From a virus, in IMG/VR virus record IMGVR_UViG_3300013114_000058, positions 1 through 34,438 of that record: a stretch of 34,438 nt of DNA. One strand, 5' to 3'. Every line of letters begins with the position of its first letter. Within the stretch, counting starts at the first letter, position 1. A program made the translations under genes and the position numbers. Shown here piece by piece: positions 3,671 to 34,230 of the stretch. Below the pieces are notes generated by a model. It was given only the letters and a program-made list of their open reading frames with translations, ran no database searches and was not told the origin of the DNA.

Positions 3671-4236
3671 TGAACTTATTAGGAATTTACAGTCGTGCTG
3701 CTGCTTGGAATGAAGCAAGATACGACCGAGTGTACAATCATGACTTCTCTATGGCTTTATTACGTGAAGAGCATAAAGAGTATCTAGACGCTATATCAGA
3801 CGTTAAAGGTTTAGATGCACTATGTGATATCATCTTTGTAGCTATGGGAGTTCTATGGAAACTAGACTTAGAACCAGAAGTGTTCGAAGAAGACGTTGAA
3901 GAAGCATACAAACATGTTAGCAAGCTCATGGAAACTAACACGCTGATGCCAATATACTTAATTAGCGCTGTTATTGATTGTTGCGACCATGATTCGGATT
4001 ACCCTGTATCTTTAGCGATGCATGTGATTATTAGTTTAGCTATGGTTCAAATGTCAATCTTCGGCTTTGATGAAGTTAAAAAGTGTGTTGCTGTATTAGT
4101 AGTATGTGATAGTAACGACAGTAAGTCAGTACAAAAGGCTGCTGCTAACGTTAAAGCTAATATTGATAAAGGTAAAGACTTTATTTGCCCAGAACCTCGT
4201 CTACAGGAGTTGCTTAACAATGAAGGACATCGTTAA
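3670..4236 (+). CDS. MazG-like nucleotide pyrophosphohydrolase
   Basis: 188 aa, all-helical. The N-terminal half carries REEHKE (residues 32-37) followed by DALCD (49-53), matching the EExxE...[ED]xxD metal-binding pattern of the MazG/dimeric dUTPase superfamily of nucleoside triphosphate pyrophosphohydrolases. The C-terminal half (about 90-188) is helical and not recognised. Lying between a putative dCMP-modifying enzyme and a dCMP deaminase, a role in turning dCTP or dUTP into the monophosphate is plausible (T4 gp56 does this), but the substrate cannot be read from the sequence. The start shares one base with the preceding stop (TAATG) and the end overlaps the next gene by 17 nt. Confidence 0.65.
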   Translation: MNLLGIYSRAAAWNEARYDRVYNHDFSMALLREEHKEYLDAISDVKGLDALCDIIFVAMGVLWKLDLEPEVFEEDVEEAYKHVSKLMETNTLMPIYLISAVIDCCDHDSDYPVSLAMHVIISLAMVQMSIFGFDEVKKCVAVLVVCDSNDSKSVQKAAANVKANIDKGKDFICPEPRLQELLNNEGHR

Positions 4237-28866: not shown

Positions 28867-28974
28867 ATTAGTTACCTTATTATTAAACCTTCATTTATTT
28901 TATAATAACAGTTTACAAATGTAAATAAATTTATTAAAATAAATTAATAACATTATATAGAGATACTCAAACTT
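28867..28974. promoter_or_regulatory. Divergent promoter region between structural and terminase genes
   Basis: 108 nt of very AT-rich DNA from which the scaffold gene (minus) and the terminase block (plus) diverge. TTTACA-AA-TGTAAA at 28912-28925 is an inverted repeat near its centre. Several TATAAT-like boxes occur on both strands (TTATAA, TATATA), but no single -35/-10 pair stands out. The palindrome is a candidate operator for the ribbon-helix-helix-like protein encoded next. Confidence 0.45.
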
Positions 28975-29148: not shown

Positions 29149-29617
29149 AGCTATATCTTTATTAGAGCAAGAACTTGCACCTAAAGATATAGCTGATGAC
29201 TTAGATCTAAGCTATTCTGCTGTTCTTAAGCTAAAGAAAGATTTCGAACAGGCTAAGCTAAATAATACAGTCGACCAGCTGGTCAATATGGATAACGTGT
29301 TATTGGCGGAAATCGCTGAACATTCACCTATTGTGGAGCAAAATCTGGATAGAGTGACTAAAGGTCTGGACGGTCTTGAGATTCTAAACACAGAACTTCA
29401 AAAGACTGCATTACAAATAGTTAAACGTGTTAATAGTCTATTAATGAGCTCAGATATGCCTTCTGAGATTGAGACGTATGCAGATATTGTATGTAATATG
29501 CAAACTACGTTCTTCAACAAAAATATGACACAAGTTAATGTACAAAACAACTTCGGAAGTGAGAATACAAGTGCAAGCAGATACAGTCAATACCTCGGTG
29601 ACAAGCCTGGAGGCTAG
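29126..29617 (+). CDS. terS: Terminase small subunit
   Basis: 163 aa. An N-terminal helix-turn-helix-like segment (ISLLEQELAPKDIADDLDLS, then YSAVLKLKKDF) would recognise the packaging site. A central helical region probably oligomerises, and a Gln/Asn-rich C-terminal tail (NVQNNFGSENTSASRYSQYL) could contact the large subunit. Identity follows from layout and adjacency to the large subunit, whose ORF overlaps it by up to 80 nt. It lies on the strand opposite to the capsid operon. Confidence 0.7.
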   Translation: MDDNQKYKAISLLEQELAPKDIADDLDLSYSAVLKLKKDFEQAKLNNTVDQLVNMDNVLLAEIAEHSPIVEQNLDRVTKGLDGLEILNTELQKTALQIVKRVNSLLMSSDMPSEIETYADIVCNMQTTFFNKNMTQVNVQNNFGSENTSASRYSQYLGDKPGG

Positions 29618-31325
29618 TCGACAAAGCCTGGAGGGTAAGGTCTTACCGGCTAACCGCGCTTTCGATATAGAGCCTTGTGTAGACCGCTCGGAGTGCAATA
29701 AGCTAAATATAACCAGGCGAGAGTTTGAGTTCTTCTATCCTGATATAGCGGAATACTACGATCTATTCAATGATCCAGTACCTCATAATATCAGTGATGA
29801 AGACTTTGAAGCTAAATATTTGACGTCAAAGCTCTGGCGGCTTAATAACTGTTATACTATCATTAATAAAGATGGTGCGCCTGTCACGTTCCGTATGAAC
29901 TTCGGACAGCACAAAGTATATGCAGCATCCAGGGTACATCCTCGCGTGATAATCCTAAAATCCCGTCAGCAAGGTATCTCAACTCTGTGGCTTGTATCAT
30001 ACTTCGATGATGCAGTATTCTGTCCATTCCTTAATCTGGGCCTGATGGCTCAAGGTACCGATGAGGCATCCACGCTGCTTGAGAGAACTAAGTTTCTATG
30101 GGACATGTTAGATGACTCTATTAAGTCGTTTATAGGGGTCTCATTAGAGAAAGATAATACAAAAGAGTATGCATTTAGCAACAAAAGTACCATATTCATT
30201 CGTGTGTCATTCCGTTCAACAACCTTGCAGCGTCTACACGTGTCGGAGTTCGGTAAGATAGCTAATAATTACCCAAAACGAGCTAAAGAGACCAAAACAG
30301 GTACTCTACAAGCACTTGGTAAGGGAAATACAGGTATTATAGAGTCAACTGCTGAAGGTCGTAACATGTTTAAGCAAATGTGGGATGACTCAGTGCTCGT
30401 AGAGAACAGTACAGGTCTTAGTGTCAAGGACTTCAAGCCAATATTTCTATCCTGGCTCGACGACCCCGACTGTCTCAATGATGTAGAGCAACCTGTAGAC
30501 GGTGAAGCAGCAGACTATTTTGCTAAGTTAGAAGAGCAGACAGGTCGTAAGCTAAGTAAAGAACAGAAGAACTTCTGGATTATCCAGCGGCGCGAGCTCG
30601 GTGGTGATATATTCCAGGAATATCCTGCCACACCTGAAGAAGCCTTCACTGCAAGCCGCGACGGCACATATTACAGTAGGTTGTTCAATGAATCTGTAGT
30701 ACGTAAGGGTCGTGTGGTAAGTGGATTATACGACCCTAACTTACCTGTCGATGTCTATTTTGACCTCGGTGTCGACGACTACTTTGTTGTAGGCTTTGTA
30801 CAGTGGTATAGAGACGAATGGCGACTTGTAGATGAGTACTGGAATAACGGCTACGCGATTACTCACTATATAGATGAAGTAATTAGCCGTGGATATACTA
30901 TACGTGATTGGAATTTCCCTCACGATATACGTCAACGGTCTTTAACTAACGCTAACAGCAGCGGTCAAGCTAAAAGTAGAGAAGACATAGTGCGTGAGTA
31001 CATCCGTGATAACCAAATACCTGGTCGTGTGATGACTTTAGCTAAAGAAAGTATAGCAGATGGTATTGAAGCTGTACGTCGAATGATTCCTAAAATGCGG
31101 GTCGATAAACGTTGCTCTTATCTAATGGAATGTGCTCTAAATTATAGTAAAGAGTGGGATGATAAGCAACAAGTTTGGAAACAGACTCCTGTGCATGACG
31201 AATATTCTCACGGCGCGGATGTACTTAGGTCGATTGCTTGTAATACAGTTGAAAATAGGGAATACCATAGGAGTCCTTATGAGGGCCGTCAACAGAGGGC
31301 TCGTATGAGTGGCTTCGATGTATAA
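29538..31325 (+). CDS. terL: Terminase large subunit (ATPase and nuclease)
   Basis: 595 aa from the longest start. The ATPase has ILKSRQQGISTLW (139-151), a Walker A variant of terminases with Ile where Lys is usual, then RLHVSEFGKIA with E237, and ESTAEGRNM (269-277) as the coupling motif. The C-terminal RNase-H-like nuclease has VDVYFDLGVDD (D409) and ends with YSHGADVLRSIA. It drives DNA into the procapsid and cuts the concatemer. The ATG at 29538 lies 80 nt inside the small-subunit gene with no ribosome-binding site; an in-frame GTG at 29571 is an alternative start. Confidence 0.9.
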   Translation: MYKTTSEVRIQVQADTVNTSVTSLEASRQSLEGKVLPANRAFDIEPCVDRSECNKLNITRREFEFFYPDIAEYYDLFNDPVPHNISDEDFEAKYLTSKLWRLNNCYTIINKDGAPVTFRMNFGQHKVYAASRVHPRVIILKSRQQGISTLWLVSYFDDAVFCPFLNLGLMAQGTDEASTLLERTKFLWDMLDDSIKSFIGVSLEKDNTKEYAFSNKSTIFIRVSFRSTTLQRLHVSEFGKIANNYPKRAKETKTGTLQALGKGNTGIIESTAEGRNMFKQMWDDSVLVENSTGLSVKDFKPIFLSWLDDPDCLNDVEQPVDGEAADYFAKLEEQTGRKLSKEQKNFWIIQRRELGGDIFQEYPATPEEAFTASRDGTYYSRLFNESVVRKGRVVSGLYDPNLPVDVYFDLGVDDYFVVGFVQWYRDEWRLVDEYWNNGYAITHYIDEVISRGYTIRDWNFPHDIRQRSLTNANSSGQAKSREDIVREYIRDNQIPGRVMTLAKESIADGIEAVRRMIPKMRVDKRCSYLMECALNYSKEWDDKQQVWKQTPVHDEYSHGADVLRSIACNTVENREYHRSPYEGRQQRARMSGFDV

Positions 31326-31334
31326 CCTGGCCAC

Positions 31335-31500
31335 TTATATAAATTTATTACGCTTAAATTCTGCATGCATCCATTTACTACCTTAAATGTATAGTTATAT
31401 AAATTTATTATACTTAAACTTGTATGCATCCATTTTACTACCTTATATGTATAGTTATATAAATTTATTATACTTAAACTTGTATGCATCCATTTTACTG
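31335..31500. repeat. Three tandem copies of a 60-bp AT-rich repeat
   Basis: Units begin at 31335, 31395 and 31455 (exact 60-nt period; the third is cut after about 46 nt). Each reads TTATATAAATTTATTATACT, then TAAACTTGTATGCATCCATT, then a less conserved end. The first copy differs slightly (ACGCTTAAATTCTGCATGC). The minus strand of each unit encodes a 20-residue peptide in frame, an effect of the 60-nt period and probably not a gene. Candidate iteron array, promoter cluster or recombination substrate just after terminase. Confidence 0.8.
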
Positions 31501-31560
31501 ATTTCCGTTACGGTGGGAGCCCCCCAGACTGGCCCTAGGCCCTAGTGACCAGGATCCAGG
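31501..31560. other. GC-rich islet after terminase, candidate packaging or end site
   Basis: A sharp change from AT-rich repeat DNA to about 60 nt rich in G and C. It contains CCGTTACGG, GGGAGCCCCCC, the tandem 7-mer GGCCCTAGGCCCTAG and two CCAGG sites. It codes for nothing visible. Being next to the terminase genes, it could be a cos or pac element, or a replication feature; function is not shown by the sequence alone. Confidence 0.4.
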
Positions 31561-31562
31561 CA

Positions 31563-31674
31563 ATTAGATGACTATAACTCAATAGCATATGCTTATAACC
31601 CAGGTTGTTATAACGATATAGCTAAATAGTTGACTATAGCTCAGTAGTATATGTTTATAACCCAGGTTGTTATA
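31563..31674. repeat. Decayed 62-nt direct repeat
   Basis: TGACTATAACTCAATAGCAT at 31569 recurs as TGACTATAGCTCAGTAGTAT at 31631. Each is followed by the same CCAGGTT hairpin (31593-31613 and 31656-31674). The two copies show scattered substitutions, which suggests an older duplication than the leader repeats downstream. Confidence 0.6.
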
Positions 31675-31737
31675 TGCTTATAACCAGGTTTGTTATAACT
31701 ATATAGCTAAATAACATCTATGCAATTAAGTTATATG

Positions 31738-31969
31738 CTTATAGCCAGGTTTGTTATAACTATATAGCTAAATAGCATAGATTCACTTAAACTATATACT
31801 TATAGCTAAATATTATAAAATAATATTGTACAAACCTGGTTACCTGGTCTATACGCACATGCACGTACTATTTATAATAAAGTCTCAACATTTTAGTTAT
31901 ATACTTATAGCATTCTACTCTATAAAAAAGTTGTACTTAATTAAAATTTGGCTTTATTATTAAATTATC
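31738..31969 (+). repeat. Structured leader repeat, copy A (232 nt)
   Basis: Nearly identical to 32160-32378 apart from a 13-nt insertion (ATAAAATAATATT) and a few changes. Outer arms CCAGGTTTGT (31745-31754) and ACAAACCTGG (31830-31839) pair exactly, and an inner 12-bp arm pair is broken by one mismatch. A promoter candidate lies near the 3' end. It ends 29 nt before the start of the 55-aa gene at 31999. Confidence 0.85.
31931..31960 (+). promoter_or_regulatory. Promoter candidate in leader copy A
   Basis: TTGTAC (31931-31936), 18-nt spacer, TATTAT (31955-31960). The -10 matches 5 of 6 consensus bases, the -35 only 3 of 6. It is identical in leader copy B and the same distance from the end of the repeat, which supports function. 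Confidence 0.4.
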
Positions 31970-31998
31970 AAATGCAAACAATTAAAGAGTAACTAAAT

Positions 31999-32166
31999 AT
32001 GACTAATAATCCTGACAATATAGATTTAAACTATATTAAAAGTCTTGTACAAACGACAAGTGACATTATAGAATATACCCATAATGGTGAGTATGTTACA
32101 TTTACGTTTAGTAACGGCGACGGTTGGTATTTTGACATAGACATTGATATTACTGATGTCTTATAG
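31999..32166 (+). CDS. Small acidic protein, 55 aa, between two leader repeats
   Basis: MTNNPDNIDLNYIKSLVQTT ... GWYFDIDIDITDVL. Acidic, with a helix followed by two or three beta strands (HNGEYVTFTFSNGDGWYFDI). Start has AAAGAG 11 nt upstream. Its stop codon lies inside the first bases of leader copy B. No family recognised; probably an early host-interaction protein by position. Confidence 0.6.
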   Translation: MTNNPDNIDLNYIKSLVQTTSDIIEYTHNGEYVTFTFSNGDGWYFDIDIDITDVL

Positions 32167-32378
32167 CCAGGTTTGTTATAAGTATATAGCTAAATAGCAT
32201 AGATTCACTTAAACTATATACTTATAGCTAAATATTGTACAAACCTGGTTACCTGGTCTATACGCACATGCACGTACTATTTATAATAAAGTCTCAACAT
32301 TTTAGTTATAAGTATATTCTTTTCTACTCTATAAAAAAGTTGTACTTAATTAAAATTTGGCTTTATTATTAAATTATC
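32160..32378 (+). repeat. Structured leader repeat, copy B (219 nt)
   Basis: Second copy of the element at 31738-31969. The pairing is perfect here: outer 10 bp CCAGGTTTGT (32167-32176)/ACAAACCTGG (32239-32248), and inner 12 bp TATAAGTATATA (32177-32188)/TATATACTTATA (32215-32226), with a 12-nt one-sided bulge and a 26-nt apical loop. The short CCAGG-loop hairpin at 32161-32181 uses the same bases and cannot coexist with the large fold. Sits 23 nt before the start of the 72-aa gene at 32402. Confidence 0.85.
32340..32369 (+). promoter_or_regulatory. Promoter candidate in leader copy B
   Basis: TTGTAC (32340-32345), 18-nt spacer, TATTAT (32364-32369), the same as in copy A. A transcript from here would begin about 25 nt before the 72-aa gene. 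Confidence 0.4.
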
Positions 32379-32401
32379 GAAACAACAAATGAGTAAGTAA
32401 G

Positions 32402-32620
32402 ATGCAGATTGAAACTTTACAAGATGTAGAGATGTTTATATACACCCTAGAGATAACTAGTATGCTTTGGCATGCTGATGACTTAGTTAGTGATATACCT
32501 AACTTTAGGCATTTGGATGACTCACAACGAGCTCAAATGCAAGAAGCTATGAATGAAGCTAAGCAAGTGTGTATAGACAACGAGTGTAGTATTTTTGACT
32601 TCTATACTCTAGAAGATTAA
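32402..32620 (+). CDS. Small acidic helical protein, 72 aa
   Basis: MQIETLQDVEMFIYTLEITS, LDDSQRAQMQEAMNEAKQV, ending CSIFDFYTLED. It is acidic and probably all-helical. GAGTAAGTAAG lies just upstream as a weak ribosome-binding site. It follows leader copy B. Unknown function; by position and size probably an early gene product. Confidence 0.65.
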   Translation: MQIETLQDVEMFIYTLEITSMLWHADDLVSDIPNFRHLDDSQRAQMQEAMNEAKQVCIDNECSIFDFYTLED

Positions 32621-32689: not shown

Positions 32690-33124
32690 ATGACTATTAA
32701 GAAACAATTTGTAGAGATTTATGAGCTATTGGAAGCTAATAAGTCTAAGAAAGTTAGCACAGTACTGCCTGAGCTAATTGAGTTGATGACTGCTAAGCAA
32801 AATAGCAAGAACTTCATCCTGGACGATGATGGCAATGTAACTCATGTGTATTGCTACTATCATAAGCAATGGGAGGATGTGACTGTTGCTGAGTATGGAG
32901 CTAAGAAGTCTACTGCAACTGGACTTAATACAATGTGTAAAGAAGGAGTCTCACAGTGGACTAAGGCCCAGAAAGCTAAGAAGGATGCTAAAGCTAAATT
33001 GCTTGAAGATGTAGCTAAAGGTCTGGTCGAAGTCTCTGAAGTTGCTACTAAGATGACAGAGATAGACGCCCAGGCAGCTGAAATTATCCCTCGTAAAGAC
33101 GGTCACCAGGTTGACTTCAGCTAA
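32690..33124 (+). CDS. Conserved small phage protein, paralogue 1 (144 aa)
   Basis: The centre reads VYCYYHKQWEDVTVAEYGAK, then KKSTATGLNTMCKEGVSQWT. It aligns without gaps to the centre of the 158-aa protein at 33754 (KCYYHKLWMDPQVAEFGAKK, then GSASGFNSMCKDGVSKWT). C55, H58 and C83 are invariant between the two and could bind a metal. A helical, charged N-terminus and a Lys/Ala-rich helical C-terminus flank the core and both end in EIIPR or QIIPR-type motifs. A very strong ribosome-binding site (AAGGAGG) precedes it, so it should be well expressed. Function unknown. Confidence 0.75.
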   Translation: MTIKKQFVEIYELLEANKSKKVSTVLPELIELMTAKQNSKNFILDDDGNVTHVYCYYHKQWEDVTVAEYGAKKSTATGLNTMCKEGVSQWTKAQKAKKDAKAKLLEDVAKGLVEVSEVATKMTEIDAQAAEIIPRKDGHQVDFS

Positions 33125-33753: not shown

Positions 33754-34230
33754 ATGGCAAATATTAAAAAAGCATTTCAACCAATTGTTACTTTATTAGA
33801 AGACAACAGCGACGCAATCGCACCAGAACTTTTAGCTCAAGTTAAAGAGTTAGCTTCAGCTAAAGTAGGTGGCGGCGGTGGTAAAGCTACTACGTTCCAT
33901 CGTGACCCAGACACTGGCGAAGTAATTGCTGTTAAGTGCTACTATCACAAGTTATGGATGGACCCGCAAGTTGCTGAATTCGGTGCTAAGAAAGGTAGTG
34001 CATCGGGCTTCAACAGCATGTGTAAAGACGGCGTCAGCAAGTGGACTAAGCAGAAAGCAGCAGCTCAGAAAGCAGAAGCAGCTATCTTAGACCAGGTAGC
34101 TAGTGGTGAGTTAGCTCCAAGTGACATTGAAGCACGTCGTGAAGAGATTGCCGCTGAAGCAGCTCAGATTATCCCACGTGAAGATGGCTACGGCTATGAG
34201 AAACTTGAAGATTTATTAGCTGCACGCTAA
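33754..34230 (+). CDS. Conserved small phage protein, paralogue 2 (158 aa)
   Basis: Paralogue of the 144-aa protein at 32690. The shared core is KCYYHKLWMDPQVAEFGAKK, then GSASGFNSMCKDGVSKWTKQ, with C62, H65 and C90 conserved. The N-terminal helix has a Gly-rich linker (KVGGGGGKAT) absent from the paralogue. The C-terminal half is an Ala/Lys/Glu-rich helix (KQKAAAQKAEAAILDQVASG) and ends in EDLLAAR. It is under a structured leader and followed by a terminator, so it forms its own transcription unit. Function unknown; early expression likely. Confidence 0.75.
   Translation: MANIKKAFQPIVTLLEDNSDAIAPELLAQVKELASAKVGGGGGKATTFHRDPDTGEVIAVKCYYHKLWMDPQVAEFGAKKGSASGFNSMCKDGVSKWTKQKAAAQKAEAAILDQVASGELAPSDIEARREEIAAEAAQIIPREDGYGYEKLEDLLAAR

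Follow-up and report, generated by a model that had tools for sequence, protein, structure and literature searches.

This analysis concerns a 34.4-kb fragment of a virus record, which as a whole is called the window. Judged by its proteins, it is a piece of a KF-1/PH1-like, Kafunavirus-like podophage, a group with genomes of ~42 kb: the tape-measure-like protein, the terminase and the phrog_10459 proteins match those of Edwardsiella phages KF-1/IW-1/ETP-1, and further matches for the same three protein types are found in Pseudoalteromonas phage PH1, Vibrio phage VPMS1 and Dickeya phage Amaethon. Between the terminase gene terL (29538-31325) and p10459a lies a gap with two small open reading frames (ORFs), each preceded by one copy of a duplicated cassette (Table 1). 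This gap is common to ~25 relatives, in which gene order is kept, gap length ranges from 0.6 to 2.9 kb and the small ORFs inside vary; the relatives compared are mostly metagenomic. The window contains a second phrog_10459 paralogue at 33754-34230, and for both paralogues the fold is predicted with confidence but matches no solved structure. Directly after terL (31335-31493), three near-palindromic repeats of TATATAAATTTATTA follow each other at 60-nt spacing; most relatives have this motif at the equivalent position (1.14 per kb inside the gap vs. 0.06 outside), and in the window it occurs once more, at 28925, in the divergent region. A GC-rich block, GGCCCTAG, is located at 31517-31545 within the AT-rich gap, and similar blocks occur in relatives.

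Table 1. Features of the terL-p10459a gap in the window.
Feature	Position	Strand	Basis or remark
Degenerate ~62-nt units ahead of copy A	31553-31737	+	
Copy A (array unit, P1, P2, leader)	31738-31996	+	precedes ORF 31999-32166
Two TATAGCTAAATA sites upstream of P1, copy A	31763-31814	+	third, inverted, near 31892-31901
P1 copy A, TGTACA-17-TATACG	31827-31855	+	alignment to relatives
Alternating tract copy A (TATACGCACATGCACGTAC)	31850-31868	+	sequence
P2 copy A, TGTACT-17-TATTAT	31932-31960	+	sequence; 38 nt before start codon
Small ORF A, 55 aa	31999-32166	+	weak relative in L065 (34%, E 2e-5)
Copy B of duplicated cassette	32160-32400	+	precedes ORF 32402-32620
Two TATAGCTAAATA sites upstream of P1, copy B	32185-32236	+	inverted site near 32301-32310
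P1 copy B	32236-32264	+	alignment to relatives
Alternating tract copy B	32259-32277	+	sequence
P2 copy B, TGTACT-17-TATTAT	32341-32369	+	sequence; 32 nt before start codon
Small ORF B, 72 aa	32402-32620	+	relative in L023 (60%)
p10459a (phrog_10459)	32690-33124	+	conserved gene closing gap in relatives

An earlier note on this DNA had described a two-copy repeat at 31738-31969 and 32160-32378. These two segments are indeed 91% identical, and the similarity reaches beyond them to 31996 and 32400, stopping 2-3 nt short of the start codons (31999 and 32402); at this full extent, the copies share 88% identity over 259 nt (BLAST), with an ungapped core of 92% over 160 nt. As had been proposed, a different small ORF stands behind each copy: ORF A and ORF B are unrelated to each other, and the stop codon of ORF A (32164-32166) falls inside copy B. 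The few differences between the copies are clustered in a 13-nt deletion before the upstream promoter (P1), in the block between P1 and the downstream promoter (P2), and in the leader right before the start codons. The promoter candidates, previously noted as identical, are unchanged between the copies, as is the alternating pyrimidine-purine tract attached to P1. A degenerate ~62-nt array (31553, 31615, 31677, 31738) supplies, with its last unit, the 5′ part of the repeat. A long tandem array, with ~89-nt units that are 92-99% alike, is found in L028 (1-742), directly before the small-gene region. Nested inverted repeats are present in copy B as claimed: the outer pair measures 10 bp (CCAGGTTTGT/ACAAACCTGG) and the inner one ~13 bp (TATAAGTATATAG/CTATATACTTATA); the inner pair of copy A contains a mismatch, and the nested stems are located upstream of both promoters. 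There is no terminator-like site within 31738-32400.

P1 was aligned without gaps in 35 loci, using a search matrix built from 14 seeds, and is present in about 30 relatives, nearly always once per genome and upstream of p10459a; PH1, IW-1 and VPMS1 have one P1 each, and no clear P1 was found in the relatives L021, L023, L018 and L031. Its consensus is T[GT]TAC[AT], 17 nt, TGn directly before TATTCG, then CRYGYGCRCRY. The -35 element with its 17-nt spacing and the extended -10 TGn, which is usual in the relatives and lacking in the window copies, agree with a σ70 promoter. The -10 hexamer does not: A-11 is present, but T-7 is replaced by G or A at all sites (TATTCG, TATACG and similar), and by the σ70 consensus a promoter without A-8 and T-7 is expected to be weak. 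The strict P1 pattern was found in none of 84,980 cellular genomes and in 11 viral contigs, ten of which belong to the KF-1/PH1-like group. The remaining one, an unrelated GC-rich 58-kb contig (L147), carries the pattern with a tract at about 3732-3769, possibly by chance. P2 lies ~105 nt downstream of P1 in the window, directly before the ORF, and in both copies has -35 and -10 hexamers 17 nt apart, which suggests a normal σ70 promoter. A σ70-like P2 site also follows P1 by ~100 nt in most relatives (80% reach a score of 10, vs. 20% of shuffles). A search for a phage-encoded T7-type RNA polymerase in eight records gave no match, and the control was likewise without a match in any of them.

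The best-conserved part of the cassette had been overlooked by the earlier note: in the relatives, P1 runs directly into a 13-20 bp alternating pyrimidine-purine tract. The alternation begins at the C of TATTCG, from where the pyrimidine share is 1.00, 0.00, 1.00, 0.00 and so on (within 0.09) for ~13 positions, and the individual letters within Y and R vary along the tract. Among 31 sites, retained after near-identical sites and two sites fetched by their tract sequence had been dropped, transitions make up 85% of the pairwise differences in the tract, compared to 36% in the spacer, 27% upstream and 33% downstream (the tree being ignored); the flanks, with about one third transitions, look saturated. 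This difference implies that the alternation itself seems to be under selection. An alternating run of at least 12 bp, the length criterion for Z-DNA elements, is found in 26 of the 31 sites but in only 0.4% of shuffles. Several seeds had first been spotted by their alternating run, and the P1 search was therefore repeated on the pre-tract columns only; this matrix, trained on the same sites and thus a partial rather than a full safeguard, split its best sites into P1 with a tract, whose alternating runs span 11-24 apart from one degenerate site with 7, and ordinary promoters, where the runs are mostly 1-4. TA steps are weakly avoided in the tract overall (10 observed vs. 14.6 expected). The tract was also considered as a palindromic operator or a 5′-end RNA hairpin, and this idea was rejected: there is no fixed centre, and the best palindrome measures 4-12 nt.

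The copying of promoters is not peculiar to the window. For each relative, the 150 nt before each ORF were compared with those before ORFs of the same locus, some of the compared ORFs being short and predicted mechanically only. Such upstream segments match in register, up to a point close to the start codons of unrelated ORFs, in the window and in L118 (95% over 84 nt), L009 (93% over 69 nt, with as many as three copies), L114 (100% over 59 nt), L132 (92% over 86 nt), L031 (100% over 56 nt) and L011 (100% over 33 nt), with weaker cases elsewhere. L013/L070 has its own, independent duplication of P1, with no credible ORF between the two P1 copies. The 53 control ORFs outside the gap of the window show no upstream duplication, except for one overlapping pair that shares upstream DNA. 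This recurrence indicates that copying of start signals is habitual at this locus among these phages; in relatives, some duplications concern segments other than P1/P2, and therefore support the habit rather than the exact module. The earlier suggestion of a mobile or modular cassette is thus borne out in its second half, as relatives copy promoters independently, and is unsupported in its first, as the cassette keeps to a single locus both in the window and in those complete relatives that were searched. Within the window, an incomplete genome, the element does not precede other genes elsewhere and recurs only as the fragments that form the ~62-nt array. In PH1, both small ORFs stand behind a single P1/P2. 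The second of them resembles ORF B of the window (by eye only); if this likeness holds, the two ORFs once had a cassette in common, and the window's second cassette came to lie between them.

The sequences document the duplication, a conserved motif with a constant position and recurrent promoter/leader duplications in relatives, and they contain no conserved RNA fold. We consider it probable, at roughly 0.75, that the locus holds a promoter cassette for the host RNA polymerase in the rightward gene cluster of a KF-1/PH1-like podophage, and that duplication of this cassette on the spot has given each of the two small ORFs a copy from which it is expressed. Both P1 and P2 would then be active, presumably early in infection. 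P1 would bind polymerase well via its -35 and extended -10 elements; by the σ70 model, however, its melting should be difficult, given the high GC content of the start region and of the last part of the -10 element, and might require negative supercoiling of the DNA or a helper protein. This dependence may be set by the tract. The σ70-like P2 would give a leader of ~25-30 nt to the start codon. By duplication, each new small gene would thus gain its own start signal and a ribosome-binding leader. Copying of start signals before tiny new genes, known from T4-type phages, would then also take place in unrelated podophages, and repeatedly at one locus, which provides a natural set of cases for examining how expression is acquired by orphan early genes.

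A possible, tentative alternative, which is compatible with the promoter cassette, is that the locus is a protein-binding control region, in which the TATAGCTAAATA sites and/or the tract serve as operators of a phage regulator, with p10459a/b as neighbours, and in which the nested inverted repeats represent oppositely oriented binding sites. Indeed, the motif TATA[AG]CTAAA has a 15-fold higher density in the gap than outside it (21 gap sites vs. 0.84 expected from shuffles), and in the window it flanks P1 on both sides and in both orientations. However, only 9 of 26 gaps have such sites, the tract lacks a fixed palindrome centre, and the confident model of p10459a shows no resemblance to a known DNA-binding fold.

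Returning to P1 as part of a promoter cassette, the conserved alternation of its tract suggests a role of DNA shape, and the most specific form of this idea would be Z-DNA formation under negative supercoiling. A GC-rich discriminator, several start sites (at each R after Y) or a protein that reads purine positions would tolerate transitions as well. Supercoiling-sensitive promoters with a GC-rich discriminator, and Z-DNA-prone tracts near promoters, are known, and P1 resembles them in having GC-rich alternating sequence between the -10 element and the start site. Unlike those promoters, P1 is conserved across a phage family in its alternation more than in its exact sequence, and the tract replaces the end of the -10 element. 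A more speculative and rather doubtful extension is that P1 is a torsion-gated promoter: the good -35 and extended -10 elements would recruit polymerase, melting over the Z-DNA-prone start region would need negative supercoiling, and copying of the cassette would put new small genes under the same control. If true, this would place a B-Z junction in the -10 element, and P1 would signal that the phage DNA is topologically closed. If the alternation acts through DNA shape at all, it would be a rare natural non-B-DNA signal that can be read from conservation and tested on plasmids. The candidate that p10459a is a Z-DNA-binding protein was discarded, as its confident model has no informative structural match.

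The remaining explanations fit less well. It is unlikely that the repeat is a neutral, recent recombination duplicate without a function of its own: the copies are adjacent and 88-92% alike, and the upstream array marks a region prone to tandem duplication, but the promoters and the tract are unchanged in both copies, the differences are clustered outside them, and the same outcome recurs in relatives. Slightly less credible still is a replication origin or a packaging/genome-end region instead of an expression cassette. The locus adjoins terL and has AT-rich repeats and the GC-rich GGCCCTAG block nearby, and several near-complete contigs of the KF-1/PH1-like group (L011, L012, L022, L069 and others) end in or near the gap, which may be caused by genome ends or by repeats. 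However, the repeated unit runs up to two ORF start codons, there is conservation of promoters and leaders, neither the AT-rich repeats nor the GC block is part of the duplicated unit, and the overlaps at contig ends (99, 114 and 127 nt) look as if an assembler had joined a circle. Finally, a duplicated structured RNA leader or riboregulator with its promoter, the "folding RNA" of the earlier note, is highly improbable: shuffled sequences fold less well than either the whole copies (z -2.9 and -3.5) or the P1 leaders of the window (z -2.6 and -2.2), but the median z over 35 P1 leaders is -0.18, the inner stem differs between copies A and B without compensation, the nested stems lie before P1 and would thus be absent from its transcript, a tRNA search and a comparison with Rfam were negative (the earlier note, too, had not recognised a known family), and consensus folding found no conserved pair among 18 relatives, whose leader alignment is only 49% identical, so that poorly alignable structure could be missed.

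Among known systems, the closest parallel is provided by the PeSL cassettes of T4-type phages, which, according to PMC4503421, combine an early promoter with a terminator stem-loop and are spread over the genome (Arbiol 2010 and Comeau 2014, as cited there). Both systems repeat early-type promoter units before different small, poorly conserved ORFs in a variable region. However, the window cassette has two promoters instead of a terminator stem-loop, has no conserved fold, and is confined to one locus (of an incomplete window) in an unrelated podophage family; it works like a PeSL, yet is not one, since the anatomy differs. Early promoters of T4-type phages have the -35 element GTTTAC, or GTGTAC in RB49/RB43/Aeh1, and the P1 -35 occurs in the same two variants (PMC1524935). 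The T4-type promoters keep T-7 and A-11, whereas the P1 -10 ends in CG and continues into the alternating tract. Lambdoid morons, as described in PMC1524935, consist of an inserted ORF with a promoter, a terminator and foreign base composition; they share with the window cassette a small ORF with its own promoter, but morons are inserted units, whereas in the window the promoter part was copied locally. In a partial, non-exhaustive search of the literature, no report of the P1-tract cassette was found. In the relative L114 (3300-4000), a repeated leader with a GC-rich stem-loop followed by TTTT precedes each ORF, which is nearer to the terminator-plus-leader anatomy of the T4 PeSL than the window cassette is.
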